Shown piece by piece: positions 75 to 46,162 of a stretch of DNA of 47,233 nt (position 1 is its first letter; each line of letters begins with the position of its first letter). Source of the stretch: Chitinophagaceae bacterium (GTDB lineage: Bacteria > Bacteroidota > Bacteroidia > Chitinophagales > Chitinophagaceae); the NCBI GenBank assembly GCA_947447005.1, contig CANFHO010000008.1, positions 1-47,233 on the forward strand, given 5' to 3'. A program made the translations under genes and the position numbers. Under the pieces are notes generated by a model. That model was not told where the DNA came from, did not search any database, and saw nothing but the letters and a program-made list of their open reading frames with translations.

Positions 75-222
75 AAAGAGAAAAGAGAAAAGTGAAAAGT
101 GAAAAGTGAAAAGAGAAAAGAGAAAAGAGAAAAATGAAACAGCCATATTATTAAAATGGCAATAGATTTTCTCCTTTCTCTTTTCTCTTTTCTCCTTTCA
201 CTTTTCTCTTTTCTCTTTATTT
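75..222. repeat. Inverted pair of AAAAGAG/AAAAGTG heptad arrays (R1)
   Basis: The left arm (about 75-136) is a run of 7-bp words AAAAGAG, AAAAGTG and close variants. The right arm (about 166-222) is the same kind of run on the other strand. The arms can pair over roughly 50 bp with few mismatches. The 29-nt centre holds its own small stem, GCCAT (142-146) with ATGGC (156-160). The element fills the gap between the convergent YceI-like gene and msrB, and its right arm reaches the msrB stop codon. It could end transcription from both sides, but there is no classical GC stem with a T run. Confidence 0.85.
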
Positions 223-747
223 CTTCTCAAATCCCAATATCACACCATTTATGCAATAGCGAAGTCCGGTGGGTTTGGGACCATCATCGAATACGTGTCC
301 CAAATGGGCCTTGCATCTTCCACATTGCACTTCTGTTCTCTGCATCCCATGGGTATTGTCGGGGGTATAAATGATACTGCCTTTAGAAATAGGTTCAAAA
401 AAACTAGGCCATCCGCATCCACTGTCGAATTTTGCACTGCTTTTGAAAAGTGAATTTCCGCAGGCTGCACAATAGTAGGTACCCACTTCTTCAAATTTCT
501 CAAATTTGCTTGTCCAAGGACGCTCTGTACCCTTTTGTCTGGCAATGTAAAATTGCTCCGGACTCAATGCGGTTTTCCAATCCTCTTCTTTCATATCAAT
601 TTTTTCAGTGGAGGTCCTGGAAAAGGCAGAATTTTTGTTGTTTTGATCCGTCATTTTAGTTTCCTTTTTTGGGTTTTTATCCTGTGCTGTAGTGCATGAT
701 AGTGCGACAAAGCTCAGCAAGAATATGAATGTTGACTTAATATTCAT
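217..747 (-). CDS. msrB: Peptide-methionine (R)-S-oxide reductase, lipoprotein form
   Basis: This 176-residue protein reduces methionine-R-sulfoxide in proteins. The MsrB fold is complete: zinc cysteines as CAAC (93, 96) and CGRC (142, 145), the SGCGWP motif (Cys111, the usual resolving position) and the catalytic Cys165 in RYCING. Residues 1-18 form a lipoprotein signal peptide ending in the lipobox ALSC, so Cys18 should be lipidated and the enzyme should act in the envelope. A charged linker of about 35 residues separates anchor and domain. It is a single gene; no msrA is adjacent. A -7 box lies about 20 nt upstream of the ATG. The last codons abut the R1 heptad array. Confidence 0.93.
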   Translation of the reverse strand: MNIKSTFIFLLSFVALSCTTAQDKNPKKETKMTDQNNKNSAFSRTSTEKIDMKEEDWKTALSPEQFYIARQKGTERPWTSKFEKFEEVGTYYCAACGNSLFKSSAKFDSGCGWPSFFEPISKGSIIYTPDNTHGMQRTEVQCGRCKAHLGHVFDDGPKPTGLRYCINGVILGFEKK

Positions 748-766
748 TTTTAATGATGTTTGACTA

Positions 767-795
767 CAAATCTAATTATCTTTGGTTGCTCAAAA
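767..795 (-). promoter_or_regulatory. Predicted Bacteroidota promoter of msrB
   Basis: On the minus strand TAGATTTG (774-767) matches the TAnnTTTG -7 consensus exactly. A TTTTG at 795-791 lies 16 nt upstream, a little closer than the usual 17-23 nt. It would give a leader of roughly 15 nt before the msrB ATG. Confidence 0.5.
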
Positions 796-844
796 TGTTA
801 AGGAAATCCTCAACAATCTTAACCAACTCTATAAGCTTTAAAAC

Positions 845-1420
845 ATGTTCAACCTCATTTTGTTCGGTCCTCCTGGAAGTGGTAAAGGTACCCAATCAGA
901 AAAACTCATTGCAAAATACGGTTTCAAGCATCTTTCTACAGGAGATATTCTTCGTTCTGAGATTGCCAATCAAACTATTTTGGGCTTAGAGGCAAAGTCG
1001 TATATGGACCAGGGTCAGTTGGTTCCGGATGCAGTTGTGATTGGAATGGTTGATGCAGCATTGAATGCAAACAAAGGGGTGAATGGATTTTTATTTGATG
1101 GTTTCCCCAGAACAAAGGCTCAGGCCATTGCCTTGGATGAATTGCTTCAAACGCATAACACTTCCATCAATCTTGTTCTGGCTTTGGATGTGCCCGAGGA
1201 TGAATTGATCAAACGTATGGTACATCGTGCAAAAACTTCAGGAAGAAGCGATGATGCTGATGAGAATGTGCAACAAAAAAGGATCTCAGTCTATAAGAAT
1301 GAGACCCTTGCTGTGGCAGAACATTATGATCAGTTTGGAAAGGTTGAAACCTTGAACGGATTGGGAGAGATTGATGAAATATTCTCCGGAATCTGTGCAG
1401 CGGTTGAAGCAAAATCTTAA
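845..1420 (+). CDS. adk: Adenylate kinase, short-LID form
   Basis: Adenylate kinase interconverts 2 ADP with ATP and AMP in the cytoplasm. The 191-residue sequence has the P-loop GPPGSGKGT at 8-16, the AMP-site LSTGDILR segment, DGFPRT, and arginines of the core in KRMVHR and QKRISVY. The LID between them is short and has no zinc cysteines. Length and short LID are normal for Bacteroidota. The stop codon lies three bases from the convergent carbonic anhydrase stop, leaving no space for a terminator. Confidence 0.95.
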   Translation: MFNLILFGPPGSGKGTQSEKLIAKYGFKHLSTGDILRSEIANQTILGLEAKSYMDQGQLVPDAVVIGMVDAALNANKGVNGFLFDGFPRTKAQAIALDELLQTHNTSINLVLALDVPEDELIKRMVHRAKTSGRSDDADENVQQKRISVYKNETLAVAEHYDQFGKVETLNGLGEIDEIFSGICAAVEAKS

Positions 1421-1423
1421 TCC

Positions 1424-2056
1424 TTACAAGTTATCATATTCGTAAATCGGATCCACATGTGAACCCGCGGGCATTTCACATATCGGCTTGATCAATCCAT
1501 TGTGCAAGCCATATACCCATCCATGTATGTGAGGAGCATTGTGATGTTTCCAGGCCCTCTGAACAATGGCAGTTTTGGCTAAGTTGAGTACTTGTTCTTC
1601 AACATTCAATTCAACAAGTCTGTCACATTTTTTATCCTCATTTTCAATCAAATTAAGTTCATCACGGTGAAAGCGATATACATCTTTGATATTGCGCAGC
1701 CATTTGTCGATGATACCCAAAGATTGATTAGTCATTGCTGCCTTTACGCCGCCGCATCCATAATGTCCGCACACAATGATATGTTTCACCTTCAATACTT
1801 CCACTGCATATTGAAGAACAGAAAGGAGATTGAGATCCGTATTCACGACCAGGTTTGCCACATTTCGATGTACAAATATTTCACCGGGTTGTGTACCTGT
1901 GATTTGGTTGGCAGGAACACGGCTATCGCTGCATCCAATCCAGAGGTATTCCGGGTTTTGAAGGTTTACCAATCGGTTGAAAAATTCAGGATCTCTTGCC
2001 AGGGTTTCGGCCGCCCATGATTTATTTTCCAACAAAAGTTTTTCGTATGGTTTCAT
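1424..2056 (-). CDS. Beta-class carbonic anhydrase
   Basis: This enzyme hydrates CO2 to bicarbonate. The 210-residue protein carries the beta-CA signature: CSDSR with zinc ligand Cys42 and the Asp44-Arg46 dyad, then CGHYGCGG with ligands His98 and Cys101. No signal peptide is seen, so it is cytoplasmic. It starts 10 nt after the SulP gene on the same strand. Such pairing of a carbonic anhydrase with a SulP carrier is recurrent in bacteria and suggests that imported or exported bicarbonate is equilibrated with CO2. It could be called can or cynT; the sequence does not decide. Confidence 0.95.
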   Translation of the reverse strand: MKPYEKLLLENKSWAAETLARDPEFFNRLVNLQNPEYLWIGCSDSRVPANQITGTQPGEIFVHRNVANLVVNTDLNLLSVLQYAVEVLKVKHIIVCGHYGCGGVKAAMTNQSLGIIDKWLRNIKDVYRFHRDELNLIENEDKKCDRLVELNVEEQVLNLAKTAIVQRAWKHHNAPHIHGWVYGLHNGLIKPICEMPAGSHVDPIYEYDNL

Positions 2057-2066
2057 GTTTTTTCTT

Positions 2067-3614
2067 TTAATGTGTATTTAACAGTTGGTATGCGTTCTTT
2101 TCATTATCCTTGATTTCAACCTGAATTTTTTTCAAACTTGCATGTTGGTTGAATTCAAAGATAACATCAATGATGTCTTTATCAATAAAATCTGCTTTTG
2201 AAAGATCAATAATCAAAAAAGATGATTCAGGAATACCTTCCAATTTTTGTTTAATCAAAGGTTTGTTTAAAAAAGAAACATCTTTTTTAAGCTTGAGTAT
2301 GAAATTGTGTTGATCCTGAAACATAGAAACGGATGTTCTGAAATTGCTTCTGATTAGAAAAAATAGGGCAATCGCAATACCTATGCAAATCCCGATAAGG
2401 AGGTCCGTCAATAATATAGAAACGATTGTGCCAACAAATGGAATGAATTGATTCCAACCTTTCTCATAAAATTCCTTGAATAAACTCCATTTTGCAAGTT
2501 TATATCCAGTGAAAATCAAAATCGCCGCCAGGGATGCCAAAGGAATCTTATTCAAAATACCTGGAATAAGTATGGCACATGAAAACAAGATAAGTCCATG
2601 GGTAATGGCCGATAGTTTCGAACGAGCGCCGGCATTGACGTTTGCGGAACTTCTTACAATGACAGAGGTGAGAGGAAGCCCTCCCAGCAAACCTGCAATG
2701 ATGTTGCCTGCACCTTGTGCTTTTAATTCACGGTCTGTAGGTGTTACTCTTTTGTACGGATCAAGTTTATCAACTGCCTCAATGCTAAGCAGTGTTTCCA
2801 GGCTTGCAACTATGGCAAGTGTAAGTGCCACTTTCCACACAAGCGGATTCATGATCTGGTTGAAGTTGGGAGTTTGAAATAGACCAATAAAGGTTTCACC
2901 ATCTTTTAAAACAGGCAAGTTGACCAAATGGGTAGATTCAAGTGACAGGTTGGTATTACTGTATATGAAAAATGAATTTAGGAATACACCAGATAAAACT
3001 GCAATCAATGCTCCTGGTAACTGCTTGAGAAACTTATTTTTCTTGATGGTTTGAGTTTCAAAAATAATCAGGATGAACATGGCAACTGCTCCTGTGATCA
3101 CTGCACCTGGTGTAAATCTGCTAAGTATTTTTGTAAGCTCACTGAACGTTGTTTCTGAATTGGATTGAATATAATTTTCATCTCCTTCAAAATCATCATC
3201 ATATCCCACCAAATGAGGCATTTGCTTCAGGATGAGAATCAACCCAATCGCAGCAAGCATTCCTTTTATCACAGAGTTGGGGATATAATCACCGATTACA
3301 CCTGCTTTTACAAAGCCCAATATCAATTGAAAAAATCCTGCCAGTACAACAGCAAGCAGAAATGTTTCAAATTGTCCCATTTCAGTGATGGAACTGGCTA
3401 CTATAGCAGTCAATCCGGCTGCAGGTCCACTTACACTGAGTGGGGATCCACTCAGCAATCCTACAATGATACCGCCAACTGCACCTGTGATGATGCCCGC
3501 GAAAAGTGGAGCTTTTGAGCCCAAAGCGATACCCAGACATAATGGTAGCGCAACAAGAAATACGACGAGGGATGCAGGCAAATCTGCCTGCATGTGCTTA
3601 AAGATTTTTTTCAT
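2067..3614 (-). CDS. SulP-family anion transporter (probable bicarbonate carrier)
   Basis: This is a 515-residue SLC26/SulP protein: an N-terminal transmembrane domain with the conserved SPLSVSGPAAGLTAIV segment (about 56-71), then a cytoplasmic STAS domain from about residue 430. The family moves sulfate, bicarbonate or dicarboxylates; the substrate here is inferred as bicarbonate only from the carbonic anhydrase directly downstream. The STAS portion is short but retains the FLIIDLSKADFIDKDIID core. A small membrane protein gene lies 49 nt upstream on the same strand and may be its operon leader. Confidence 0.9.
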   Translation of the reverse strand: MKKIFKHMQADLPASLVVFLVALPLCLGIALGSKAPLFAGIITGAVGGIIVGLLSGSPLSVSGPAAGLTAIVASSITEMGQFETFLLAVVLAGFFQLILGFVKAGVIGDYIPNSVIKGMLAAIGLILILKQMPHLVGYDDDFEGDENYIQSNSETTFSELTKILSRFTPGAVITGAVAMFILIIFETQTIKKNKFLKQLPGALIAVLSGVFLNSFFIYSNTNLSLESTHLVNLPVLKDGETFIGLFQTPNFNQIMNPLVWKVALTLAIVASLETLLSIEAVDKLDPYKRVTPTDRELKAQGAGNIIAGLLGGLPLTSVIVRSSANVNAGARSKLSAITHGLILFSCAILIPGILNKIPLASLAAILIFTGYKLAKWSLFKEFYEKGWNQFIPFVGTIVSILLTDLLIGICIGIAIALFFLIRSNFRTSVSMFQDQHNFILKLKKDVSFLNKPLIKQKLEGIPESSFLIIDLSKADFIDKDIIDVIFEFNQHASLKKIQVEIKDNEKNAYQLLNTH

Positions 3615-3663
3615 GCATAATTCAGTTGATGTATTAAACTAAAATCGGGATGTTTAATTAGGA

Positions 3664-3972
3664 TCAACCAATGAGTGGTGGGCGCGTGGGTATGGTGGCA
3701 AAAAATTGATGAATAGCCTGTGAATGGATAATCAAAAGATATTGCTGCTTGGAATCATTTGTTTCAAATTTGAAGAACATTTGCTGAAAGCCCAGTTCAA
3801 TTTTTTTAGAAAATGTTTCTTCTTCAGAATGATCTTCTTTCGGTTCCAACTCTTTTTCAAGTGTAAGTTTCTGTTGCGTCATTTTCATGCAATACTGAGT
3901 CAATTCAATAACAGGCAGAATTTGTATTGAAATGATCAGTAATAAGAAAAATGTAAGCAACTTACTTTTCAT
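3664..3972 (-). CDS. Small membrane-anchored protein, unknown function
   Basis: This 102-residue protein has an N-terminal hydrophobic helix (about residues 4-22, LLTFFLLLIISIQILPV) followed by a charged region with a run of Glu and Lys and a hydrophobic tail. No catalytic motif is visible. Short Bacteroidota proteins with a similar IQ(I/L)LPV(I/K)E juncture exist next to transport genes, but I cannot name a family. I chose the ATG at 3972 because a full promoter lies 7 nt upstream; the in-frame ATG at 4008 would lie outside that transcript. It precedes SulP and carbonic anhydrase on the same strand. Confidence 0.6.
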   Translation of the reverse strand: MKSKLLTFFLLLIISIQILPVIELTQYCMKMTQQKLTLEKELEPKEDHSEEETFSKKIELGFQQMFFKFETNDSKQQYLLIIHSQAIHQFFATIPTRPPLIG

Positions 3973-3978
3973 GCGGAG

Positions 3979-4009
3979 CAAAAGTAAGCTGCTGATATTC
4001 GAATGCAAA
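3979..4009 (-). promoter_or_regulatory. Strong Bacteroidota promoter for the SulP/carbonic anhydrase operon
   Basis: On the minus strand TTTG (4009-4006), a 19-nt spacer and TACTTTTG (3986-3979) match the TTTG-N19-TAnnTTTG consensus fully. The ATG at 3972 follows after six bases, so the message would be nearly leaderless. Confidence 0.7.
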
Positions 4010-4796: not shown

Positions 4797-4805
4797 ATTG
4801 TGAGG

Positions 4806-4902
4806 TTATCGATAATCAATAATCGATTATCGGATTTGTGTGCAATTTAAACGATTTCAATATAACAACCTACAACCTATAGCATACAACCTAGAACCTC
4901 CT
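4806..4902. repeat. Two heptad arrays, ATCGATA and CAACCTA words (R2)
   Basis: Two runs of 7-bp words lie between the GH3 and fabG genes. The first (about 4808-4836) reads ATCGATA, ATCAATA, ATCGATT, ATCGGAT and is self-complementary, with CGATAATC (4810-4817) pairing with GATTATCG (4825-4832). The second (about 4864-4902) reads CAACCTA, CAACCTA, then a variant, then CAACCTA, GAACCTC, and covers the last codons and stop of the GH3 gene. The two words are unrelated; only GAGGTT (4802-4807) pairs with AACCTC at the far end. Confidence 0.75.
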
Positions 4903-20373: not shown

Positions 20374-20459
20374 GGTTGTTGTTTAGTGTTGAGAGTATTA
20401 AGTTACTGAAATGTTTTTTCAAAACCCTCAATTCTCAATCTATAACCCTCAACCTTCCA
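20374..20459. repeat. Heptad dyad with CCCTCAA-type words (R3)
   Basis: The right arm (20423-20459) reads CCCTCAA, TTCTCAA, TCTATAA, CCCTCAA, CCTTCCA, a 7-bp rhythm. The left arm (20374-20404) carries the complementary GTTGAGAG-type words less regularly. The right arm overlaps the stop codon of obg (20449-20451), and the left arm lies just before the GTG start of the patatin gene. Confidence 0.65.
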
Positions 20460-21454: not shown

Positions 21455-21486
21455 GCAAGATAGGCTTAGTTAGGCAAAGAGGCAAA
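21455..21486 (-). promoter_or_regulatory. Predicted obg promoter with -33 box inside the octad array
   Basis: On the minus strand TTTG (21486-21483, part of an AGGCAAAG repeat) is followed after 20 nt by TATCTTGC (21462-21455), close to TAnnTTTG. The ATG at 21447 lies 7 nt further. Confidence 0.45.
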
Positions 21487-21577
21487 GAGGCAAGGAGGCA
21501 AGGAGTTTTTTTATTTTTATTTGTAAAATTCCAAAAGATTTATTTTTCCTCCTTGCCTCTTTGCCTCCTTGCCTTAA
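21470..21577. repeat. Inverted octad arrays, AGGCAAAG/AGGCAAGG words (R4)
   Basis: The left arm (21470-21504) is AGGCAAAG, AGGCAAAG, AGGCAAGG, AGGCAAGG: an 8-bp rhythm. The right arm (21548-21577) is the reverse complement of the same words. The centre of about 43 nt is A+T-rich. Unlike the other dyads it lies between two divergent genes, obg and the FtsB-like gene, so a terminator role is unlikely. Confidence 0.85.
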
Positions 21578-22295: not shown

Positions 22296-22928
22296 ATGAC
22301 CAGAAAAGAGCGATACGCGACAGTTATTGATTATTTTCAGAAGAATATCCCCGAGGCAGAAACAGAGTTATTGTATGATAACCCATTTCAGTTGCTTGTT
22401 GCAGTAATTTTATCAGCTCAATGCACAGATAAACGGGTAAACCTTACCACCCCTGCCATTTTTCAAGAATTTCCGGGTCCCGCTGAATTGGCAGCCACTG
22501 ATTTCGACACCCTTTTTCCGCTTATTCGCAGCATTTCTTACCCCAACAACAAAACCAAGCACCTGATTGGCATGGCAAACATGTTGATGTCTGATTTTGG
22601 CGGAGAAGTTCCCATGACAGTAGACGAACTGGTAAAGCTACCAGGTGTTGGCAGGAAAACTGCCAATGTAATCACTTCAGTGATTGATCAACAGCCTAAT
22701 ATGGCAGTAGATACCCATGTATTCAGAGTTTCAGCCAGACTCAAACTGACACGGGGAGCTACAACACCCTTGGCTGCAGAAAAACAATTGATTGCAAATA
22801 TCCCCCCTGAACTTGTTCATAAAGCCCATCATTGGCTGATTCTGCATGGTCGGTATACTTGCCTCGCCCGTAACCCTAAATGTGATCAGTGTGGTTTGAC
22901 AGAAGTGTGTGGGTTTTATAGAGGATAG
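22296..22928 (+). CDS. nth: Endonuclease III
   Basis: Nth removes oxidised pyrimidines and cuts at AP sites. The 210-residue protein has the helix-hairpin-helix LPGVGRKTANVI with catalytic Lys121, the catalytic Asp139 in VDTHVFRVSARL, and the 4Fe-4S ligands Cys189, 196, 199 and 205 in the C-x6-C-x2-C-x5-C spacing. All functional residues are present. The stop codon is itself the first base group of heptad array R5. Confidence 0.95.
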   Translation: MTRKERYATVIDYFQKNIPEAETELLYDNPFQLLVAVILSAQCTDKRVNLTTPAIFQEFPGPAELAATDFDTLFPLIRSISYPNNKTKHLIGMANMLMSDFGGEVPMTVDELVKLPGVGRKTANVITSVIDQQPNMAVDTHVFRVSARLKLTRGATTPLAAEKQLIANIPPELVHKAHHWLILHGRYTCLARNPKCDQCGLTEVCGFYRG

Positions 22929-23012
22929 AAGTTAGAGGTTAGGAGTTAGGTTTTTATCTTGAAAAAACAGATATTTATATATATCTAACTCCTAACTTCT
23001 AACCCCTAACTA
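22923..23012. repeat. Heptad dyad with AAGTTAG/CTAACTC words (R5)
   Basis: The left arm (about 22925-22951) reads AAGTTAG, AGGTTAG, GAGTTAG; the right arm (about 22984-23012) reads CTAACTC, CTAACTT, CTAACCC, CTAACTA. The arms are reverse complements. The left arm starts at the nth stop codon, and the right arm ends 7 nt before the MFS start codon. Confidence 0.8.
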
Positions 23013-23019: not shown

Positions 23020-24255
23020 ATGAAGCCAACCCTCCGCATTCAGCTTTCACTCATGATGTTCATGCAATTCTTTGTTTGGGGTGCATGGTACGGACAAATG
23101 AGCAAGTACATGACCGACAAATTGCATGCTACAGGAGATCAGGTAGGCAATGCATATGCAGCATTTTCTATTGCTATGATTGTTGCACCGTTCTTTGTGG
23201 GGATGCTGGCTGACAGATATTTTCAGGCACAGAAAGTTTTGGGTGTATTGAACCTTTTGGGTGCTGCCACACTGTTTGTTCTTACCAAAACAACTGATCC
23301 GGATCTTTTCTTTTGGGTGATGTTGCTATATTGTATTTCTTTCACTCCCACCATTGCTTTGGCCAACTCTATTTCAATGCGTGTGATGAGCAATCCTGAA
23401 AAGGAATTTCCTGCCATCCGCGTTTTTGGAACCATCGCATGGATTGTTGTTGTAAACCTTGTTGGTTTTCTGGGGGTTGGTGACAAGGTTGAAATTTTTC
23501 AGATTGCCATGATTGCAGCTGCTTTCTTAGGTGTAATGGCTTTCTTTCTTCCAGCAACTCCTCCAACCGCAACTGGCAAAACAAGCTTTGCGCAAATCAT
23601 AGGAAAGGATGCTTTTGTGTTGTTTAAAGACAGGTCCTTTCTGGTTTTCTTTATATCTTCTATCCTGATTTGTATTCCACTTTCATTTTATTATGCATGG
23701 GCCAATCCATCCTTGACAGATTCATACAAGGCGGCATTCCCAACTGCTGATCCAACAAGTTTTAAGATTGAAAATATCATGTCGCTCGGACAAGTTTCAG
23801 AAGTGCTGTTCATGTTGTTGTTGCCATTGGTGTACAGGAAATTGGGTGTAAAGAATATTTTGTTGATCGGACTCGTAGCATGGATTACACGTTTTGCATT
23901 CTTTGGATATGGCGATGCCGGGAGCAGTACATGGATGTTATATGCAGCTATTTTACTGCATGGCGTATGTTATGATTTCTTTTTTGTTACTGGACAAATC
24001 TATACTGATAACAAAGCAGGAGAGAAGATAAAATCTCAGGCCCAAGGTTTGATTGCGCTTGCCACATATGGTGTAGGAATGTTTATTGGATCGGTGATTT
24101 CAGGAAAAGTGAAAGATGCTTACACGCATGCAAATGCAGCAGGAGTGCAGACAACACATTGGTTAAACGTATGGCTTGTTCCTGCAGGTATTGCTGCTGT
24201 TATATTGGTTTTATTTCTTTTGTTTTTTAAAAATACAAAGACAACAACAGATTAA
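23020..24255 (+). CDS. MFS transporter, nucleoside:H+ symporter (NupG/XapB)-like
   Basis: The 411-residue protein has twelve predicted membrane helices and starts MKPTLRIQLSLMMFMQFFVWGAWYG, a pattern typical of the NHS branch of the major facilitator superfamily, with DRYF after helix 2. Family members carry nucleosides, but many Bacteroidota copies sit with sugar-type dehydrogenases, as here with a Gfo/Idh/MocA gene 42 nt downstream; a sugar or cyclitol cargo is possible. Confidence 0.82.
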   Translation: MKPTLRIQLSLMMFMQFFVWGAWYGQMSKYMTDKLHATGDQVGNAYAAFSIAMIVAPFFVGMLADRYFQAQKVLGVLNLLGAATLFVLTKTTDPDLFFWVMLLYCISFTPTIALANSISMRVMSNPEKEFPAIRVFGTIAWIVVVNLVGFLGVGDKVEIFQIAMIAAAFLGVMAFFLPATPPTATGKTSFAQIIGKDAFVLFKDRSFLVFFISSILICIPLSFYYAWANPSLTDSYKAAFPTADPTSFKIENIMSLGQVSEVLFMLLLPLVYRKLGVKNILLIGLVAWITRFAFFGYGDAGSSTWMLYAAILLHGVCYDFFFVTGQIYTDNKAGEKIKSQAQGLIALATYGVGMFIGSVISGKVKDAYTHANAAGVQTTHWLNVWLVPAGIAAVILVLFLLFFKNTKTTTD

Positions 24256-24297
24256 ACATCTTAAACTTCTTCAACCACTTAAACCCCTTCAACTCTT
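24253..24297. repeat. Single 9-bp word array, CTTAAAC/CTTCAAC (R6)
   Basis: Between the MFS stop and the dehydrogenase ATG the whole gap reads CTTAAAC, TTCTTCAAC, CACTTAAAC, CCCTTCAAC, TCTT, a roughly 9-bp rhythm alternating TTAAAC and TTCAAC. No inverted partner is seen. The array starts at the stop codon and ends at the next ATG. Confidence 0.6.
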
Positions 24298-25495: not shown

Positions 25496-25608
25496 GGTAA
25501 AAGAGAAAAGTGAAGAGTGAAGAGTGAAGAATGGAACTGAATTAAGTACTCCCCATCTTTCACTTTTCACTTTTCTCTTTTCTCTTTTCTCTCTTTGCCT
25601 CTTTCCCT
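25496..25608. repeat. Inverted heptad arrays, AAAAGAG/AAAAGTG/AAGAGTG words (R7)
   Basis: The left arm (25498-25531) reads AAAAGAG, AAAAGTG, AAGAGTG, AAGAGTG, AAGAATG. The right arm (25556-25608) is complementary (CACTTTT, CTCTTTT words) and then switches to the GCCTCTTT word seen in R4 and R11. A core of about 25 nt separates them, flanked by ATGG and CCCAT. It fills the gap between the convergent dehydrogenase and korA genes. Confidence 0.85.
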
Positions 25609-28387: not shown

Positions 28388-28723
28388 ATGAAGAAACTTT
28401 TCTTCATACTCCTTTCAACCTTCTGTGTTTTACATGTTAAAGCGCAGAAGGTTTTTTCTGTTCAGTATTCCAACCAGGCAGATGTAAAAGTATATGTAGT
28501 GAAGTATGAGAATCAAGCTGATCTCAAAGTGTATAAGGTGAAATATGAAAATCAGGCTGATGAAAACAATGGCAAGTGGTTCTTTACCAAGTATTCAAAT
28601 CAGGCTAAAAAGAAAATATACTTTGTTGAATATGAGAACCAGGCTGACGTAAAGATCTTTTTTGTTGAATATGAGAACCAGGCTGGTTGGAGAAACAGAG
28701 ATAAGATGCAGTGGTTCTATTAA
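28388..28723 (+). CDS. Secreted DUF6150-type repeat protein
   Basis: After a signal peptide (about 1-19, ending HVKAQ) the 111-residue protein consists of six copies of a 13-residue unit of the form (V/I)-x-x-V-x-Y-x-N-Q-A-D-x-K, each with the YxNQA core (YSNQADVK, YENQADLK, YENQADEN, YSNQAKKK, YENQADVK, YENQAGWR). A short ENNGKW insert sits between copies 3 and 4. Alternating hydrophobic residues suggest stacked beta strands. The family has no known function. It follows BI-1 after 16 nt, so co-transcription is likely; heptad dyad R8 starts at its stop codon. Confidence 0.85.
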   Translation: MKKLFFILLSTFCVLHVKAQKVFSVQYSNQADVKVYVVKYENQADLKVYKVKYENQADENNGKWFFTKYSNQAKKKIYFVEYENQADVKIFFVEYENQAGWRNRDKMQWFY

Positions 28724-28779
28724 GTTATATGTTGTATGTTATTGCTTATTCTTAATAAGGCATACAACCAACAACTTCT
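28721..28779. repeat. Inverted repeat with GTTGTATG/CATACAAC words (R8)
   Basis: The left arm (28723-28741) contains TTATATGTTGTATGTT; the right arm (28760-28778) contains CATACAACCAACAACTT. The centre adds CTTATT-CTT-AATAAG (28745-28759), so the whole folds as one long hairpin. It begins at the DUF6150 stop codon. No T run follows. Confidence 0.75.
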
Positions 28780-28839: not shown

Positions 28840-28972
28840 AAGATGCAAGGGGAAACACGATGTACCTTGCAAGTGAAAAGACATAAAAAAAGGGGAAAAC
28901 CCCTACAACATATTACACGGATGGTTTTAGGACAAGTGGCCCTCTCTTACATAGAGAGGGTCACTTTTTTTT
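28840..28972 (+). ncRNA. Candidate structured small RNA or 3' UTR element
   Basis: This 130-nt stretch has no convincing ORF. GCAAGG (28845-28850) can pair with CCTTGC (28865-28870), or alternatively AGATGCAAG (28841-28849) with the upstream CTTGCATCT (28804-28812). A second hairpin AGGGG-AAAA-CCCCT (28891-28904) follows, and a strong intrinsic terminator closes it. A promoter-like pair lies just before 28840. It may be an independent sRNA or the 3' end of the BI-1/DUF6150 message. I do not recognise a known RNA family. Confidence 0.4.
28934..28972 (+). terminator. Intrinsic terminator
   Basis: AAGTGGCCCTCTC (28934-28946) pairs with GAGAGGGTCACTT (28954-28966), 13 bp including one G-T pair, across a 7-nt loop; eight T residues follow (28965-28972). 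It is the clearest classical terminator in the window and borders the convergent TIGR00266 gene. Confidence 0.85.
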
Positions 28973-28974
28973 AT

Positions 28975-29831: not shown

Positions 29832-29947
29832 ATAAAGAGAAAAGAGAAAAGAGAAAAGAGAAAAGAGAAAGATTTAACAGCCTAAGGGAATAACTAGCTG
29901 CTTCTTCTTTCTCTTTTCACTTTTCTCTTTTCACTTTTCTCTTTTAT
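29832..29947. repeat. Inverted AAAAGAG/AAAAGTG heptad arrays (R9)
   Basis: The left arm (29832-29873) is five AAAAGAG words. The right arm (29900-29947) is the complement with alternating CTCTTTT and CACTTTT words. The core includes CAGC (29878-29881) facing GCTG (29897-29900). The right arm reaches the stop codon of the RND pump gene; the left arm is about 50 nt before the TIGR00266 start. Both outer edges read ATAAA(A)GAGAAAAG, as in R1 and R11. Confidence 0.85.
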
Positions 29948-32900
29948 TTTAGTTTGCCATTCCACACTGGCTTGCCTTGAATCTTTCTAACGAGGTACAT
30001 GATACCTGTAAGAATAAAGAACAAAGGACCAAGTAGACCGAGTATAGAAATCCATCTGCCATGGAAGAACTTAGACATTGGTCGCTTCAATCGTTCTGCA
30101 ATCAGATACATGGCAGGAACGATGAGCAATGTCATGAAGAATGCAAATATCAATCCCCAGATAAGGGTTAACGCCAAAGGCTTCCAGAACACTGCATTAT
30201 CACCGCCAAAGAAAATATGTGGGTTCAGGTCTGAGAAGAGGGTAACAAAATTGATATTGAAACCAATCGCCAATGGGATCAAGGCGAGGATCGCCGCGAG
30301 TGCAGTTAACAATACGGGTACGATACGTGTTTTACCTGCTTCTATGACTGCTTGTCTGGTGCGCATACCTCTTTCTCTAAGTTCGTCAGCAAATTCAATC
30401 ACGAGGATACCATTTTTCACCACGATACCAGACAATCCGATGATACCAATACCTGTTGTTACAACAGCAAAGGTAGACCTGAATATTCCGTATCCTAAGA
30501 ATACGCCAATGATGCTGAAAAAGATCTCTGAAAGTACAATGACTGTTTTGCTATAAGAACCAAATTGCAAAACAAGAATCAATATGATCAATCCTATAGC
30601 AGTGAATAGTGCTGTTTGAAGGAATGATACTGTTTCTGCCATTTGCTCACCTTCTCCTGTTTGGGCGATCACAATATCTTCAGGTTTCTCTTTGTAGGCA
30701 TCAATGTATTTTTTGATCTCTGCATTAACACCCGGAGGCGTATATCCTTGAGATACCAATACATTTGAGACAATGGTAATCACACGCTTTTGATTTTTTC
30801 TTTTGATACCACCAAACGTATTACTGAGATCTACTTTCACTACAGAACTGATCGGTACTTGTTTAATCATGCCTGTGGTGAAATCACGGAACGTTATTTT
30901 CATATTCAACAACTCGGAAAGTGTTTTTCTCTGTGCAGCAAGATTCCTGATATTGATCTTGTATTCTTCCTCTCCAATTTTTAGTTTGGAAATTTCTTTT
31001 CCAAACAACGCAGTCCTGATTTCCATTCCAATTTGCCCTGTAGAAATTCCTTGTATGAGCGCTCTTTCACGGTCAATGGTAAGGTTTACTTCAGGATTAT
31101 TCATGTCGATATCGATTTTCAACTCTTCAACCCCTGGAATGTTTTTATCGCTTAAATAATTCCTGAGGTTAATGGCGGTACTTGTGAGTGATTCAAAGTC
31201 TTCGCCAGTTACTTCAATATTGATAGGAGGTTGCGTTGGCGGACCATTGCTTTCTTGAGTAACACTTATTTCTGCAGATGGAATGCCTTTCAATACATTA
31301 CGAATTGAATCTAGGTATGGCGTGGTTGCCTTACCATTGCGTTCTTCAAATGGAACAAACGATACCTGAACCCTTCCCAATTCCGGACGGGTACTTCTGT
31401 CGCCGCTGTTTGGGTCACTGGCGCCTACAGCAACATTGGCAATGACACTTTCAACAATGGGATTTTGATTTCCATTGTCGGTGCCCAAGACTTTATTGAT
31501 TTTTTTCTCCAGTTCCTGCGTTACAGAATCTGTATAGTTTACACTTGTTCCTGCTGGAAGTTTCATGTATACATAAATAGTATTTGGATCTCCTGAAGGG
31601 AACAATACTACCGGTACATTTCTGGCTCCAAAGAAAACAAAGGAGAATATCAGTAATGCAAATGTTGCAATCAACATATACACAGGTCTCCATCCTTTGG
31701 TTGTCCATTTTAACAGTTTTTCATAACTGTTCATCATTGCGGGCAACAACTTGTTTTGGAAGAAGTTGATGGCATCTTGTATAAAGTATGCATTTAAAAC
31801 AGTCAATGTTGCAAAAATAATCAACATGTTGCCAATGAACCTGTATGAAGAGCTGTCATTCATGTATCCGGGGATATCAAGCAATACACCCAAGATAAGG
31901 AGAAGCAGAAATACAGGTTTTTTGAACACCTGTGATTTTTTTTGTTTTTCAGTATGTTCATGCGACATGAAATCTACTGCGAATACAGGATTCATGATAT
32001 AGGCTACAATCAAGGATGCTGTCAGTGTAAAGATCAACATCGTTGGAAGATAGATCATGAATTTCCCAATGATTCCAGGCCAGAATAACAAAGGCACGAA
32101 TGGAGCCAGCGTTGTTAGGGTACCTGCGAGTACTGGAACGAACACTTCGCCTGCGGCATATCTTGCTGCATCTGTAGCACTGATTTTGCCTTTCCCTTGA
32201 GAAAAAATCCTGTGCGTATTTTCAATCACCACAATGGCATCATCTACCACAATTCCCAATCCAAATAACAATGCAAACAGCACAATGAAGTTTAGTGTAA
32301 CATTTGATCCTATAATAAAATCTGCAGATGGCAATAAAATAAATGCCAGGAACATGCTCAGTGGAACCGACAGTGCCACAAAAAATGAATTTGTTACACC
32401 CATGAAGAACATCAGGATAATCATTACCAGAATGAATCCAATAACAATGGAGTTTACCAGTTCGTTGAAAGCTGCAGCAGCTTTGATGCTGAGATCGCCT
32501 GTAATTGTAATGTTGAGATCTTTGGGCAATACATCCTTTTTCATTTCTTTCACAATGGCATTGATCTTCTCAGATGCATTGATGAGGTTTTCTCCCGAAC
32601 GTTTGATGATGCTCAACGAAACAACATTCTTGCCATTTAGACGTGCATAGCTTTCTTTCTCTTTAACGGTATCTGAAATGTTGGCGATATCACGTAAATA
32701 CAATGCTGAACCATAGACATTCTTAACCACAACATTTTGCAGCTCAAGTGCTGATTTGAATTGTCCATTTACTCGAAGCGTTCTTTTTTGATCGCCCACT
32801 TCAAGCAAACCTCCTGAGATGTCGTTGTTCTCTCTTTGAATGGCCTGTTCGATATCAGAGTATCCAACTTTGGCAGCTTCCATTTTATATCTGTCAACAT

Positions 32901-33525
32901 TGATTTGTATCTCACGCTCCGGGGCGCCAACCATATCAATCCTGCTGATTTCAGTAAGTTCTTCAAATTTATCTTTCAATTTATCTGCAAAATCTCCCAA
33001 TTGGACTGCATCATAATCACCACTCACATTCACTGACATGATTGGAAATTCTGCCAGTGATATTTCTTGTACAACCGGTTCTTGTGTAAGATCTTTTGGA
33101 AGATCTTTTTTAGCCTTGTCTACTGCATCGCGCATTTTTTGAAGAGCCAGATCCGTTTTAACGGAAGTACTGAATTCAACTACAATGGCTGAGAAGTCCT
33201 GAAGCGAGTTGCTGGTGATCTTATTGATCTTCACACCTGTGATTCCTTTCAGTTGTTTTTCAATTGGACGTGTTACCAGGTTTTCAATATCCTTTGGCGA
33301 ATTACCTACATATACTGTTTGTACGAATATTGTTGGCAATGTTACGTCTGGGAATTGTTCTTTTGGGTATGATGTAAACAAACCGATACCCCAAATCGTA
33401 ATAATGAGGGTAATAAGATATACCGCTGTTTTATTTTTGATCGCCCAATCAGTTGCTGAAAACGTTTTGGGGTTTTTCAGCAATCGCATGATCGGGTTAG
33501 ATGAAGATGAATTATCCATTTTCAA
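29944..33525 (-). CDS. RND-family efflux pump, inner-membrane transporter
   Basis: The 1193-residue protein is a full-length AcrB/HAE-type RND pump: helix 1 at about 34-52, a large periplasmic loop (FPDVTLPTIFVQTVYVGNSP, IEKQLKGITGV), helices 2-6 with the proton-relay Asp pair in GLGIVVDDAIVVIEN, a second loop and helices 7-12. A roughly 50-residue extra hydrophobic stretch near helix 6 (LLLLILGVLLDIPG) lengthens it over E. coli AcrB. It is the last gene of the tetR-tolC-adaptor-pump operon; substrates unknown. Confidence 0.92.
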   Translation of the reverse strand: MKMDNSSSSNPIMRLLKNPKTFSATDWAIKNKTAVYLITLIITIWGIGLFTSYPKEQFPDVTLPTIFVQTVYVGNSPKDIENLVTRPIEKQLKGITGVKINKITSNSLQDFSAIVVEFSTSVKTDLALQKMRDAVDKAKKDLPKDLTQEPVVQEISLAEFPIMSVNVSGDYDAVQLGDFADKLKDKFEELTEISRIDMVGAPEREIQINVDRYKMEAAKVGYSDIEQAIQRENNDISGGLLEVGDQKRTLRVNGQFKSALELQNVVVKNVYGSALYLRDIANISDTVKEKESYARLNGKNVVSLSIIKRSGENLINASEKINAIVKEMKKDVLPKDLNITITGDLSIKAAAAFNELVNSIVIGFILVMIILMFFMGVTNSFFVALSVPLSMFLAFILLPSADFIIGSNVTLNFIVLFALLFGLGIVVDDAIVVIENTHRIFSQGKGKISATDAARYAAGEVFVPVLAGTLTTLAPFVPLLFWPGIIGKFMIYLPTMLIFTLTASLIVAYIMNPVFAVDFMSHEHTEKQKKSQVFKKPVFLLLLILGVLLDIPGYMNDSSSYRFIGNMLIIFATLTVLNAYFIQDAINFFQNKLLPAMMNSYEKLLKWTTKGWRPVYMLIATFALLIFSFVFFGARNVPVVLFPSGDPNTIYVYMKLPAGTSVNYTDSVTQELEKKINKVLGTDNGNQNPIVESVIANVAVGASDPNSGDRSTRPELGRVQVSFVPFEERNGKATTPYLDSIRNVLKGIPSAEISVTQESNGPPTQPPINIEVTGEDFESLTSTAINLRNYLSDKNIPGVEELKIDIDMNNPEVNLTIDRERALIQGISTGQIGMEIRTALFGKEISKLKIGEEEYKINIRNLAAQRKTLSELLNMKITFRDFTTGMIKQVPISSVVKVDLSNTFGGIKRKNQKRVITIVSNVLVSQGYTPPGVNAEIKKYIDAYKEKPEDIVIAQTGEGEQMAETVSFLQTALFTAIGLIILILVLQFGSYSKTVIVLSEIFFSIIGVFLGYGIFRSTFAVVTTGIGIIGLSGIVVKNGILVIEFADELRERGMRTRQAVIEAGKTRIVPVLLTALAAILALIPLAIGFNINFVTLFSDLNPHIFFGGDNAVFWKPLALTLIWGLIFAFFMTLLIVPAMYLIAERLKRPMSKFFHGRWISILGLLGPLFFILTGIMYLVRKIQGKPVWNGKLK

Positions 33526-43766: not shown

Positions 43767-43872
43767 GGGAGTTGAATATTGAGAGTTGAGAGTTTATGGT
43801 TGTTTAAATATCAATCGTTGTCACGAAAGATATATAAATTTTGCTAAACTCTCAACTCTAAACTCTCAACTA
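43767..43872. repeat. Inverted heptad arrays, GAGAGTT/AACTCTC words (R10)
   Basis: The left arm (43767-43797) reads AGTTGAA, TATTGAG, AGTTGAG, AGTTTAT; the right arm (43843-43872) reads AACTCTC, AACTCTA, AACTCTC, AACTATC. The arms are complementary. The left arm begins directly at the acyl-CoA ligase ATG, and the right arm overlaps the stop codon of the S9 peptidase gene (43870-43872). The A+T-rich core of about 45 nt has TATCTTTC on the minus strand, a possible -7 box. Confidence 0.8.
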
Positions 43873-46014
43873 TCTCACCATTGCATCAGGAATTTCTTTT
43901 TGTAAAAGATTTTTATAAATGAATTGGTTGTTTTCATTTGTTGAATGGGATTGTTGATTTCCTCCCCACCCATGGCGACCTCCAGGGTAAACCATAAATT
44001 CAAAATGTTTTTTTGAATCCTGTAATTTTTTAATGAGTTGGAGACTATTTTGCATGTGCACATTGTCATCCATTGTTCCATGGTAAATTCTCAACAGGCC
44101 TTTCAGTTTGTCGGCATAGGTCATTACTGATCCTGCTGCATATCCATCTGGATTTTCTGCTGGGGTGTCCATAAATCTCTCTGTGTAATGTGAGTCATAC
44201 AATTTCCAATCAGTTACACTGCCACCAGCCAATCCATGTGTGAAATATCCTGCGCCAGCAGTCAGCGCCATACATGTCATATATCCACCATAGCTAAAGC
44301 CTGAAATACCTACTCTGGTTGAATCTGCGCCATGTTCCCTAAGCCATTTTACAATAGTAACCCAGTCTTTCACTTCCCACTTGCCCAAATTTCTATGCAT
44401 ATAATTCACGCCGTTCTTACCAAAATGTCCGCTTGCACGATGGTCTATTGCCACCTGAATCAATCCTTCTTTTGCCCACCATTGTGTTTGTCCGTTATAC
44501 TGCCATCCATCCCTTACAGTGCCTGCATTTGGTCCACCATAGATGTTGATCATCACCGGATATTTTTTTGCAGTATCAAAATGTATTGGCCAGGTAATTC
44601 GAATAGGAAGTTGATACAGACCATCTTCAGAAATAATTCTCAATACTTCTGTTTTTGCAATTTCATACGTATCAAAATCTGCACCCTTGCTATCACCCAA
44701 TTCTGCCATTAATTTTCCTTTATTGTTTACCAGTGCAAGTTTATCTGGTGTTAATGAATTGGAATAACGGGTTATGAAATAACTTCCATTGGGAGACAGA
44801 TCTGCATTGTGCGTATATTCTCCAAATGTTAGTCGCATTTGATTTTTACCATCCAGATCCACTCTGTATAAATCTGTTCTTGTAGAGTTTTGTTGACGGG
44901 AGGTAAAATAGAGAATATTCTTCATGGTATCGATGTAACGAACCTGCGTGCTCCAGTTATTACCAGAAGTTATTTTGTTGCGCAATGTGCCATCCATGTT
45001 GTGGAAATAATATTGTTCCCAGCCATCCTTATCGCTTTGAAGCAGGAACCCCTTGTTTCCTGGCATGAACGTAATTCTGCTTCCCATATCATCTAGGTCG
45101 ATCCATGTTTTTTGCTCTTCGCTATACAATTCTTTCTTGCTGCCATTGTTCAAATCCACGGCATAGATTTTCAACTTATCTTGTCCTCTGTTCATCCATT
45201 GAATCCAAACATTTTTGGAATCTGGTGCCCAATAAGGCAAGCCAAAGTATTGATCATCCTGTTCATTGAAATCAGCCCATGTTATTTTGCTGCCATTGGC
45301 ATCAGTGATTCCTATGCGTACGCTGGGATTTGGATCACCTGCTTTTGGATAGCGTGTATATTCAGTATATCCATGTTGGCCGGTTTCTCCTACAATAGGA
45401 AACATGGGAACTTTGGAATCATCCATGCGCATAAAGCAAATGCTTTTACTGTCTGGGCTCCACCAAAATGATTTATAACGAGATGGCCTGCCAAGAATTT
45501 CTTCAAAATAAACCCAGCTGGCATAACCATTCAAAATGAGGTCGGATCCATCTTTGGTTACTCTGTTTTCTTTGCCTGAAGCCAGCTCTATAGTATAGAG
45601 GTCATTTTTTCGAGTGAATGCAACATAGTTGTTATCAGGCGAAAGAGTAGGGTTGATTTCCGGGTCAGTATTGTTTGTGATTTGTTTGGCAGGTTTTCCT
45701 GGTTCATTCAGAAAAAGATCATTATTCCTGACACTAACAGTGATGTTAGATGGTGCTGCTTTTTTATCAGCCGGAGGTGCAGACAATTTTCCTGTTTTGC
45801 AATCATATGAAAACAGCTTAGTGGAAGAATCCGGATGTTCTTTCTTGTAAATCAGGAAGTGACTGTCATCAATCCAGCCCATGACTTGTGGAAGTTGTGT
45901 GGTGATATTTGTTTTATCGCCACGTAGCATTTGTTTTTCTGTGAGTTGTTGTTTTTGGGCAAAGCCAACAAATGCTATCAGCAATGCAATCATCGATACA
46001 ATTACCTTTTTCAT
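43870..46014 (-). CDS. S9B-family prolyl dipeptidyl peptidase (DPP-IV-like)
   Basis: This 714-residue exopeptidase has a signal peptide (about 1-19), an eight-bladed beta-propeller domain (about 30-460; repeated NP..SPDN-type blades) and a C-terminal alpha/beta hydrolase with the triad Ser574 in GFSYGG, Asp650 in HGTMDDNVH and His681 in GGRHGW. The YFEEIL sequence holds the paired Glu that binds the free N-terminus in DPP-IV. It likely removes Xaa-Pro dipeptides from peptides in the periplasm. Confidence 0.93.
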   Translation of the reverse strand: MKKVIVSMIALLIAFVGFAQKQQLTEKQMLRGDKTNITTQLPQVMGWIDDSHFLIYKKEHPDSSTKLFSYDCKTGKLSAPPADKKAAPSNITVSVRNNDLFLNEPGKPAKQITNNTDPEINPTLSPDNNYVAFTRKNDLYTIELASGKENRVTKDGSDLILNGYASWVYFEEILGRPSRYKSFWWSPDSKSICFMRMDDSKVPMFPIVGETGQHGYTEYTRYPKAGDPNPSVRIGITDANGSKITWADFNEQDDQYFGLPYWAPDSKNVWIQWMNRGQDKLKIYAVDLNNGSKKELYSEEQKTWIDLDDMGSRITFMPGNKGFLLQSDKDGWEQYYFHNMDGTLRNKITSGNNWSTQVRYIDTMKNILYFTSRQQNSTRTDLYRVDLDGKNQMRLTFGEYTHNADLSPNGSYFITRYSNSLTPDKLALVNNKGKLMAELGDSKGADFDTYEIAKTEVLRIISEDGLYQLPIRITWPIHFDTAKKYPVMINIYGGPNAGTVRDGWQYNGQTQWWAKEGLIQVAIDHRASGHFGKNGVNYMHRNLGKWEVKDWVTIVKWLREHGADSTRVGISGFSYGGYMTCMALTAGAGYFTHGLAGGSVTDWKLYDSHYTERFMDTPAENPDGYAAGSVMTYADKLKGLLRIYHGTMDDNVHMQNSLQLIKKLQDSKKHFEFMVYPGGRHGWGGNQQSHSTNENNQFIYKNLLQKEIPDAMVR

Positions 46015-46044
46015 ATTGATCAGTTGTAGTTTGTGTTTATATGT

Positions 46045-46070
46045 TTCAAGCCCCTGCGGGGCTATTTGAA
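46045..46070. promoter_or_regulatory. GC hairpin upstream of the S9 peptidase
   Basis: AGCCCC (46049-46054) pairs with GGGGCT (46058-46063) over a 3-nt loop, with TTCAA and TTGAA flanking on the outside. It is 30 nt upstream of the start codon (on the minus strand side). It could be a leftover terminator or a leader hairpin. Confidence 0.45.
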
Positions 46071-46077
46071 TATGTTC

Positions 46078-46162
46078 ACTTTTCTCTTTGCCTCTTTGCC
46101 TCCTTGCCTCCTTGCCTTTCTTGACTTTTCTCTTTTCTCTCTTCTCTTTTCTCTTTATTTTA
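46078..46162. repeat. Single mixed-word array, AGGCAAAG and AAAAGAG (R11)
   Basis: The plus strand shows TTTGCCTC, TTTGCCTC, CTTGCCTC, CTTGCC, then CTTTTCT-type words up to 46154. It thus joins the octad word of R4 to the heptad word of R1/R7/R9. No inverted partner lies nearby. On the minus strand it starts at the M20 stop codon and runs toward the S9 peptidase start. Confidence 0.75.

Follow-up and report, generated by a model that had tools for sequence, protein, structure and literature searches.

The STRRs of cyanobacteria are degenerate heptads in intergenic DNA that form direct arrays of fixed consensus words. The heptads GGGAATC and GGGGA(T/C)T of Xanthomonas and Nostoc, according to Rehm et al. 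2015 (PMC4692102), are intergenic, consist of degenerate 7-bp units, lie mostly no more than 50 bp from ORF ends, are under-represented between divergent ORFs and vary in length among relatives; their G strand lies on the coding strand when the repeat follows a stop but on the non-coding strand when it precedes a start. That paper counts 70 and 75 convergent GGGAATC pairs in two Xanthomonas genomes. Paired, outward-pointing heptads are therefore already known from GGGAATC, and the statement in a sequence-only reading of the DNA studied here that no family of inverted heptads had been described is wrong. TAACTGA heptads are reported from Beggiatoaceae, cyanobacteria and five Bacteroidetes in MacGregor 2015 (PMC4679880). 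REPs and BIMEs are palindromes of intergenic DNA that follow genes, chiefly where the adjoining ORFs are in tandem or converge; REPs are 20–40 bp long, have family-specific sequences and carry a GTAG or CGTC end (PMC3733652).

The genome of a Chitinophagaceae bacterium (the host genome) contains dispersed intergenic heptad arrays, that is, tandem units of 7 bp, sometimes 8 or 9 bp, beside gene ends. Their purine- or G-rich strand is directed from gene into gap, and a gap with arrays at both of its edges forms a palindrome.

Eleven stretches in the window

The window, the whole stretch of 47,233 nucleotides analysed, contains eleven intergenic stretches, R1 to R11, which the sequence-only reading had described as a family of heptad-word dyads with one or two arms, inverted where there are two. 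Its observation is mostly real: all eleven were found where it had placed them, and six proved to be inverted tandem arrays. Each stretch received an array score and an inverted-partner score, both compared with those of 300 dinucleotide shuffles of that stretch; in R1, R4, R5, R7, R9 and R10 an array of period 7, 8 or 14 and its inverted partner both exceeded all 300 shuffles.

In R1, arm 1 (75–133, purine strand on +, AAAAGAG/AAAAGTG, array score 46) is matched in inverted orientation at 47/51 positions by arm 2 (168–218, purine strand on −, array score 29), and the core motif ACAGCC (139–144, +) stands near the inner end of arm 1. R9 has the same motif (29877–29882, +) between an AAAAGAG arm (29834–29870, +, array score 30) and a second arm (29908–29945, −, inverted match 35/37) that runs into the stop codon of ORF 29944–33525(−). 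The arms of R7 (25499–25530, +, AAAAGAG/AAGAGTG; 25558–25592, −, inverted match 27/31) enclose a loop core (25535–25554, +) with an identical copy at C6:2261–2280. R4 is built from the 8-bp word GGCAAAGA/GGCAAGGA (arm 1, 21472–21505, +, array score 23; arm 2, 21548–21574, −, inverted match 26/27). In R5 the AAGTTAG-like arm 1 (22918–22950, +) overlaps the stop codon for endonuclease III, and arm 2 (22984–23011, −, inverted match 19/21) lies right before the start codon for the nucleoside H+ symporter. The R10 dyad (43767–43872) has GAGAGTT/AACTCTC arms flanking an AAGATA element.

R6 and R11 are single arms, arrays for which the 300-shuffle test gave no inverted partner. R6 is a single C-rich arm (24252–24293, −) of 9-bp period, reached by 0.3% of shuffles, that ends 4 nt before an ATG. 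R11, whose array score of 23 was reached by 0/300 shuffles, joins two words, the 8-bp GCCTCTTT (46084–46117, −, score 23) and then the 7-bp CTTTTCT (46125–46156, −, score 19), and ends 3 nt before the stop codon of ORF 46160–47074(−); the description of one word per stretch fails there. R2 (4806–4902) is a weak array (0.7% of shuffles), with CAACCTA-like units at the right and unrelated ATCGATAATC-like units at the left, and has no inverted pair, 23% of shuffles equalling it. R8 (28721–28779) is a marginal dyad (array 2.3%, inverted 4% of shuffles). R3 (20374–20459) is at chance level by both scores in 300 dinucleotide shuffles (array 15.3%, inverted 64.7%); its RNA fold is nevertheless stronger (z −4.2 and −3.5) than the folds of 60 shuffles. 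No array score above 6 was found in the five divergent gaps of at least 40 bp within the window. The claim that the word differs by site is half right, since AAAAGAG is common to R1, R7, R9 and part of R11, and GGCAAAGA to R4 and part of R11.

Distribution, vocabulary and polarity

A scan of 834 kb of the 2.9-Mb host genome, in which 60 kb of the scanned DNA is intergenic, gave 61 intergenic arrays, all of period 7, 8, 9 or 14, as against one array in one shuffle. Genes were called by a simple longest-ORF rule; ten further arrays fell inside such genes, and the arrays are mostly outside genes. At named loci of relatives, 7/88 intergenic arrays had other periods (4, 10, 11 and 15). Contrary to the sequence-only reading, the words are not private to their sites: a genome-specific vocabulary is reused at many places (AAAAGAG in 17 bins of 400 bp, AAGGAGGC in 11 and AAAGAGGC in 10, some bins being shared), and one loop is found again at another locus. 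GGG is absent from the commonest words (AAAAGAG, AAGGAGGC, AAAGAGGC and AGGCAGT) and present in a few rarer ones, ACAGGGC among them. Relatives build their arrays from other words, and the dialect shifts between species. GAGTTAT occurs in 21 of 296 genomes and its reverse, itself a heptad, in 9/296. Across the whole genome the pattern ARGARAACAGCC has 3 matches versus 1 in the reversed control, too few to be informative; AAAAGAG reversed is the same cyclic word and hence provides no control for an AAAAGAG search. The gap orthologous to R6 has an array of score at least 9 in 32/93 rows.

The arms had been said to begin on a stop or start codon or a few bases away from one. Measured in nine scanned genomes, this holds for stops (median distance 3 nt, quartiles −2 and 12, n=83) and less closely for starts (median 24 nt, n=25). 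Arrays occupy 15/58 convergent, 23/215 tandem and 2/96 divergent gaps in the host genome (divergent 2/96 versus the rest 38/273, Fisher p 5e-4). The corresponding counts are 7/75, 14/321 and 1/137 in eight relatives and 14/126, 40/438 and 3/174 at 80 relative loci (divergent versus 54/564 others); additional stretches of one relative, G020, have arrays in 1/19 divergent and 5/78 other gaps.

Three features had escaped the sequence-only reading: the crowding of arrays at stop codons with very few in divergent gaps, a polarity of the inverted pairs, and loops that are partly shared. As to polarity, the G-rich arm comes first in 55/58 inverted pairs. This total comprises 33/34 pairs from nine scanned genomes (pairs were present in six, the remaining pair is undecided, and two R1 alleles are counted twice among the 34), 20/22 at the 80 relative loci, where 1 was C-first, and 2/2 in the extra G020 stretches. 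Inverted repeats without heptads were 63 G-first, 46 C-first and 30 neutral. Close after stops, the G strand is the coding strand in 70 arms versus 7, and 3'-end arms without a detected partner keep this outward polarity (37 versus 6); in the extra G020 stretches the 3'-end count is 3 versus 2 only. Close before starts, the G strand is the non-coding strand in 13 versus 5 (5 versus 0 in the extra G020 stretches), with polarity absent among unpaired 5' arms (6 versus 5). Background composition was rejected as the cause of the polarity, because G is not in excess downstream of stops in heptad-less gaps (skew 0.02 to −0.10). Such gaps do have a C excess in the 30 nt upstream of starts (skew −0.25 to −0.12), which may help explain the 5' arms.

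Arms, loops and possible origins

The shared design is borne out, and so is a coupling of the two arms of a gap: 27/28 neighbouring pairs of opposite skew in the host genome share a word, compared with 198/756 between-gap combinations. Unit order was uncorrelated between the arms of 30 dyads (sum 493; unit shuffles 485 ± 16, reached by 160/500). There is thus no sign of fine arm-to-arm correction, and the local correction that had been proposed is not supported in the hairpin register. Selection on RNA hairpins, also proposed, is not borne out at the base level, G.U mismatches not being clearly preferred to A.C (15 versus 13 in tandem, 13 versus 9 in convergent and 5 versus 3 in divergent or unassigned gaps; 33 versus 25 in total), and we saw no fine-scale selection on base sequence.

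The proposal of slippage, on the other hand, is supported by two R1 alleles, known from contig ends that overlap in a draft assembly. In the copy on contig C4, arm 1 is shorter by exactly 21 bp, or 3 units, arm 2 has six base changes, and a loop stretch is identical (46/46). The sequence-only reading had gone further, deriving the word of each gap from local slippage with strand switching and mutual correction of the arms. We regard this as unlikely. The word common to both arms of a gap and the change of copy number by whole units agree with it, as does the hypothesis, cited in PMC4679880 and PMC4692102, that polymerase slippage favours heptads. It does not account for words, variants, the ACAGCC core and one loop that are common to different gaps, nor for arms unmatched in unit order, nor for a pair of relatives' loci (L116 and L122) that differ in the loop and both arms within DNA that is locally 92–99% identical.

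Those shared loops suggest copying. The R7 loop recurs without change within a dyad elsewhere in the genome, one 37-bp stretch being identical at the two loci, and its core has two genome copies at no more than 3 mismatches; this was the only non-allelic copy among 28 loops in a search over the scanned 834 kb. ACAGCC, chosen after the fact as the most enriched 6-mer, is present in 11/28 loops versus 6/291 heptad-less gaps. It is possible, if doubtful, that the dyads are mobile palindromes indifferent to their words, of which whole copies (arm, core, arm) move between gaps and replace one another. If so, architecture and G-outward polarity would be inherited while sequence was left free, and each species would have its own heptad dialect. 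As to an enzyme for such movement, the host genome has no reverse transcriptase match, and its one Y1-transposase gene has no link to the arrays.

Two enzymatic readings were considered in their own right. Movement of REP-type palindromes by a Y1 (RAYT-like) transposase would fit a gap preference that is the same as that of REPs (PMC3733652), and the presence of a Y1_Tnp gene in the host genome and in array-bearing G008, G015, G019 and G020. It is nevertheless very unlikely: the host has a single copy, whose 3.3-kb locus contains no array of score at least 10 (one 7-bp stretch scores 9), array-bearing G013 has no Y1 gene, G007 has one yet no 7-, 8-, 9- or 14-bp array in 160 kb, and the arms have no fixed sequence. 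On these grounds, among them the imperfect match to the distribution of arrays, we rejected it. More improbable still is a reverse transcriptase or telomerase-like enzyme that adds template-coded heptads at broken ends with their G strands outward. The outward G strands and telomere-like words (by eye, GTTAGGA for example) recall such an enzyme, but the idea is largely refuted, save for a polymerase of some other family, because RVT_1 (PF00078) has no match in the host genome, which is recorded as 100% complete, or in 22/24 other genomes searched, array-rich G020 included. Native-looking sequence also persists between the R5 arms. Another idea that we rejected is that the arrays are permitted by loss of SbcD, a hairpin nuclease; it has no match in the host genome, but matches above the cut-off occur in array-bearing G020, G015 and G008.

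The native-looking sequence in R5 is the promoter-like loop string TATCTTGA (22955–22962, +), which resembles a −7 box and is kept in six aligned relatives that have no arms; the exact string is missing in two other relatives, G019 and G015. In R10 the AAGATA element is kept by 8/9 aligned sequences (the window included, and 9 of 15 R10 rows being aligned), in relatives with or without arms. The R5 loop, and less clearly the R10 loop, thus seems to be native promoter sequence, a reading based on conservation, and the arms there would not have been imported with the loop as one cassette. The −7 consensus of Bacteroidota is TAnnTTTG. Perfect boxes were present in 1/27 tandem dyads, with matches on both strands of that one, and so there is no general rule of a promoter in the loop.

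The loops also bear on whether the dyads are two-way terminators, composed of a purine arm, a core hairpin and a pyrimidine arm, in which any word would serve and the purine-then-pyrimidine order alone would be needed. Both 3' ends and convergent gaps are enriched in arrays; RNA folds are strong for R1, R4, R5, R7, R9 and R10 (z −4.0 to −11.7 on both strands); an inner hairpin is present in 11/20 convergent and 2/26 tandem loops; ACAGCC..GGCTGT-like cores adjoin T-rich arms; and the dyads have a G-first order, to which ordinary T-tailed hairpins also lean (42 G-first, 26 C-first, 5 neutral). Against this, partnerless arms keep their outward polarity at 3' ends, arm pairing is not fine-tuned, the tandem dyads R5 and R10 surround a promoter-like element, and several convergent loops already have a terminator-like hairpin of their own. 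We consider the terminator reading rather unlikely. A restricted T-tail search (0/41 heptad versus 25/167 other gaps in the host, 2/28 versus 22/290 in relatives) is blind to loops longer than 9 nt and is accordingly not used on either side.

The reading that we favour, with confidence about evenly balanced by doubt, is that slippage builds the arrays, which also spread from gap to gap, and that gene edges around terminators or promoters tolerate them. A new dyad would arise when a second gap receives a copy of an existing arm or of a whole dyad, by repeat-primed ectopic template switching or by gene conversion, and slippage would afterwards lengthen, shorten and homogenise each arm separately. 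Selection would mainly decide where arrays are tolerated, namely from the gene edge to a mid-gap terminator in convergent gaps, or to a promoter in some tandem gaps. The long RNA hairpins, which can pair in many registers, may help transcripts to end or may stop read-through.

Relation to known repeat systems

The arrays resemble REPs and BIMEs in being intergenic palindromes with the same preference for tandem and convergent gaps, and differ from REPs as described in PMC3733652 in that the stem is a tandem array of differing words with no fixed sequence; nor does the 3.3-kb locus of the host's one Y1 transposase gene contain an array of score at least 10. With the TAACTGA heptads they share dispersed intergenic heptads, Bacteroidetes hosts and, at times, other heptads in the same gap. 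TAACTGA is, however, a single word that in its main genome lies mostly just upstream of start codons, with one inverted case (PMC4679880), whereas the host arrays are mainly on the stop-codon side, are frequently in inverted pairs and use many words.

The resemblance to Xanthomonas and Nostoc is closer. Found here as there are the heptameric intergenic unit (with 8- and 9-bp units as well), convergent inverted pairs, a G strand that is coding after stops, and scarcity between divergent ORFs (2/96 versus 38/273; 3/174 versus 54/564). PMC4692102 treats one G-run word type in each genome, for which a G-quadruplex is proposed, and describes few Nostoc pairs. The host instead has many words, most without GGG, as well as 8- and 9-bp words, shared loop cores and species dialects, and quadruplex-capable GGG words are not found among its commonest. 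We regard the many gaps filled by degenerate 7- and 8-letter repeats as a fast-changing relative of the Xanthomonas and cyanobacterial families. With many words, two alleles of an array and one duplicated dyad in a single genome, the origin of such repeats becomes directly testable, and the host arrays are a good handle on how they arise and spread. The heptads seen here in Bacteroidota have placement and polarity much as in Xanthomonas and cyanobacteria, with words mostly without GGG quadruplex runs. This similarity argues for a general cause and not a property of one word, and that cause would be either a polar process of copying or slippage or a rule on what gene ends tolerate.

Heptad arrays in the window and across the genome

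All eleven intergenic stretches (R1 to R11) quoted by the sequence-only reading were found in the sequence, and the design that it had ascribed to them, namely one arm of degenerate tandem units or two inverted arms around a loop, held in part when each was set against 300 dinucleotide shuffles. R1 (75-222), R4 (21470-21577), R5 (22923-23012), R7 (25496-25608), R9 (29832-29947), and R10 (43767-43872) scored above all 300 shuffles for tandem array and inverted partner alike, and R6 (24253-24297) and R11 (46078-46162) were arrays without an inverted partner. By the same two scores R2 (4806-4902) was weak, R8 (28721-28779) marginal, and R3 (20374-20459) indistinguishable from its shuffles; the RNA fold of R3 was stronger than folds of shuffled sequence. 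The convergent gap that holds R8 also contains an ordinary terminator-like hairpin with a T run behind it, at about 28930-28974.

An excess of arrays over shuffled sequence was observed outside the window as well. The window, contig C8, belongs to a 2.9-Mb genome in 169 contigs, and 834 kb of that genome (60 kb of it intergenic) was scanned at periods 4 to 15, with genes called by a simple longest-ORF rule. The scan returned 61 intergenic arrays (29 of period 7, 19 of period 8, 3 of period 9, and 10 of period 14) and 10 further arrays, one of period 12, in called genes, as against one array in one shuffle. We also scanned 80 named loci (1.39 Mb), gathered by searching named genomes with one window protein and titled mostly as Chitinophagaceae, Sediminibacterium, Niastella, and related assemblies. 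Here 81 of 88 intergenic arrays had period 7, 8, 9, or 14 and 7 had other periods, 21 arrays lay inside called genes, and a shuffle gave one array. The scans cover part of each genome, and the genomes are drafts. The heptad-array design is real and spread across the genome.

A Niastella populi contig carries a 407-bp period-14 array (L131:3251-3657) that opens with alternating GTTCACA and GTTCATA heptads, and the start of another contig of the window's genome (G000:C14:97-354) is a dense CTCTCTT/CTCCTTT array region within a called 282-bp ORF, which is probably a false ORF created by the repeats.

Placement, pairing, and polarity of the arms

In the window's genome arrays occupied 15/58 convergent, 23/215 tandem, and 2/96 divergent gaps. 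The corresponding counts were 7/75, 14/321, and 1/137 in eight relatives, 14/126, 40/438, and 3/174 at the named loci, and 2/12, 3/66, and 1/19 in extra stretches of G020, another species of the genus. At gene 3' ends the median distance between stop codon and array start was 3 nt.

Neighboring opposite arms shared a word in 27 of 28 cases in the window's genome, as compared with 198 of 756 between-gap combinations (named loci, 16/25 versus 36/600; G020, 2/3 versus 2/6). Variant units did not follow a matching order in the two arms, which gives no support to the local correction between arms that had been suggested, and mismatches between arms showed no clear bias to G.U, which gives none, at base level, to the suggested selection on RNA hairpins. 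The arms have a common source but stay in no common register.

Of 34 inverted pairs from nine scanned genomes (six of which had pairs), 33 had the G-rich arm 5' of its partner, as did 20 of 22 pairs from the named loci, a set partly overlapping the first, and both pairs of further stretches; the total, with two R1 alleles entered separately, was 55 G-first, 1 C-first, and 2 undecided. Heptad-free inverted repeats of the same genomes were mixed (63 G-first, 46 C-first, and 30 neutral), and T-tailed hairpins leaned G-first (42, with 26 C-first and 5 neutral). Arms with no detected partner had the G strand pointing outward, from gene to gap, at 3' ends (37 versus 6), with no polarity at 5' ends (6 versus 5), and gaps without heptads had no excess of G after stops. 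Since heptad-free repeats are mixed, partnerless 3' arms point outward, and heptad-less gaps show no G excess after stops, the polarity is not merely a by-product of hairpin formation or base composition. It varies between genomes: in the extra G020 stretches outward arms numbered only 3 versus 2 at 3' ends and 5 versus 0 at 5' ends.

Words, loops, and change within a locus

The words are not private to their sites, contrary to what had been proposed. When arrays were grouped by word in 400-bp bins, 17 bins had AAAAGAG as their main word, 11 had AAGGAGGC, and 10 had AAAGAGGC, some of them counting for both; further words were AGGCAGT (5 bins), AATAGGC (3), and a GGCACAA type (several). A tolerant search with R1 gave at least 100 partly overlapping matches genome-wide, 40 of 117 candidates having been scored. 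Other species of the genus use GAGTTAT and GTTAATG (G020), GGCACAA and GAGAGTT (G008), or ACGTTCA (G019), and 160 kb scanned in G007 held no array of period 7, 8, 9, or 14. A run of three AAAAGAG units, with one mismatch allowed, was present in 11 of 296 genomes sampled across the phylum; the window's genome had 101 overlapping matches, and no other genome had more than 5. GAGTTAT, absent from the window's genome, occurred in 21 of the 296, and its reversed control word in 9. In its behavior the vocabulary resembles a dialect.

ACAGCC or its complement occurred in 11 of 28 loops of the window's genome versus 6 of 291 heptad-less gaps; among all 6-mers it showed the strongest enrichment and was selected for that reason. 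Of its 23 intergenic occurrences, 13 lie between two arrays, one that ends within 40 bp upstream and one downstream, and two more have a downstream array alone; the 15 come from 12 different dyads or sites. A stretch made up of the R7 loop and a few bases of its arms recurs, identical at 37 of 37 bases, within another dyad, on contig C6, the loop core having exactly two genome copies with up to 3 mismatches allowed, and the loops at C3:26860 and C4:4194 look by eye like versions of one hairpin. This partial sharing of loops points to the copying of dyads from gap to gap. The R5 loop contains TATCTTGA, also present in six aligned armless relatives, the exact string being missing from two others, and at R10 AAGATA is conserved in 8 of 9 aligned sequences (from 15 rows), some armed and some armless.

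Inner hairpins, of a strength that no more than 5% of 60 shuffles attained, were found in 11 of 20 convergent loops (two of them from related genomes), 2 of 26 tandem loops, and 1 of 4 divergent loops, and some in convergent loops are terminator-like by eye. A putative role of the dyads as two-way terminators is the strongest functional rival to an origin by slippage and copying.

Orthologous gaps, which the sequence-only reading had proposed to compare, sometimes carry another word and sometimes none. Among 93 rows at R6, the window and some duplicate assemblies being counted, 32 had an array scoring at least 9 when all periods of 5 to 16 were allowed, 22 of them at period 7 or 14; the arrays are often C-rich against the start codon and vary in word. 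The R6 gap is a repeated host of arrays. Between the named-genome loci L116 and L122 the loop and both arms differ. Over the two 120-column blocks that precede the gap, and over those that follow it, their flanks are 92-99% identical; farther upstream the figure is 72-92%. Between L128 and L137 there is a difference of 14 bp, together with unit changes inside one arm. At L111 near-perfect AACTCAC units fill almost all of the 110 bp before the start codon of a Gfo/Idh gene, at a contig end, and in a relative (G005:C296:2865-3636) a second Gfo/Idh-type gene lies in fragments with internal stop codons beside an intact copy.

Whole-unit change is directly visible at R1, at draft-assembly contig ends. 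The window's first 350 bases (1-350) overlap the start of contig C4 (1-329) with one base different in the flanks and 46 identical bases in the loop stretch; arm 1 is exactly 21 bp shorter in C4, and six bases are changed in arm 2. Judged from these contig ends, they are most simply two alleles of one R1 locus in the sampled population. Since both contigs break off at this locus and their heptad numbers are unequal, strain variation in the array probably broke the assembly there.

Origin of the arrays and known parallels

We favor a reading in which slippage acts within arms, an arm or whole dyad is now and then copied into another gap, and selection sets where arrays are tolerated. As to candidate factors, no reverse-transcriptase match was found in the window's genome, SbcD does not track with the arrays, and the genome's single Y1 transposase gene lies near no array that scores 10 or above.

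The literature searched, which covered few subscription papers, yielded no report of multi-word paired heptads in Bacteroidota. A survey reports that inverted repeats are over-represented between genes (PMC4060949), and TAACTGA heptads have five Bacteroidetes among their hosts (MacGregor 2015, PMC4679880). The heptads of Rehm et al. (2015, PMC4692102), described there with one G-run word type per genome, are nearly identical to our arrays in anatomy and polarity.
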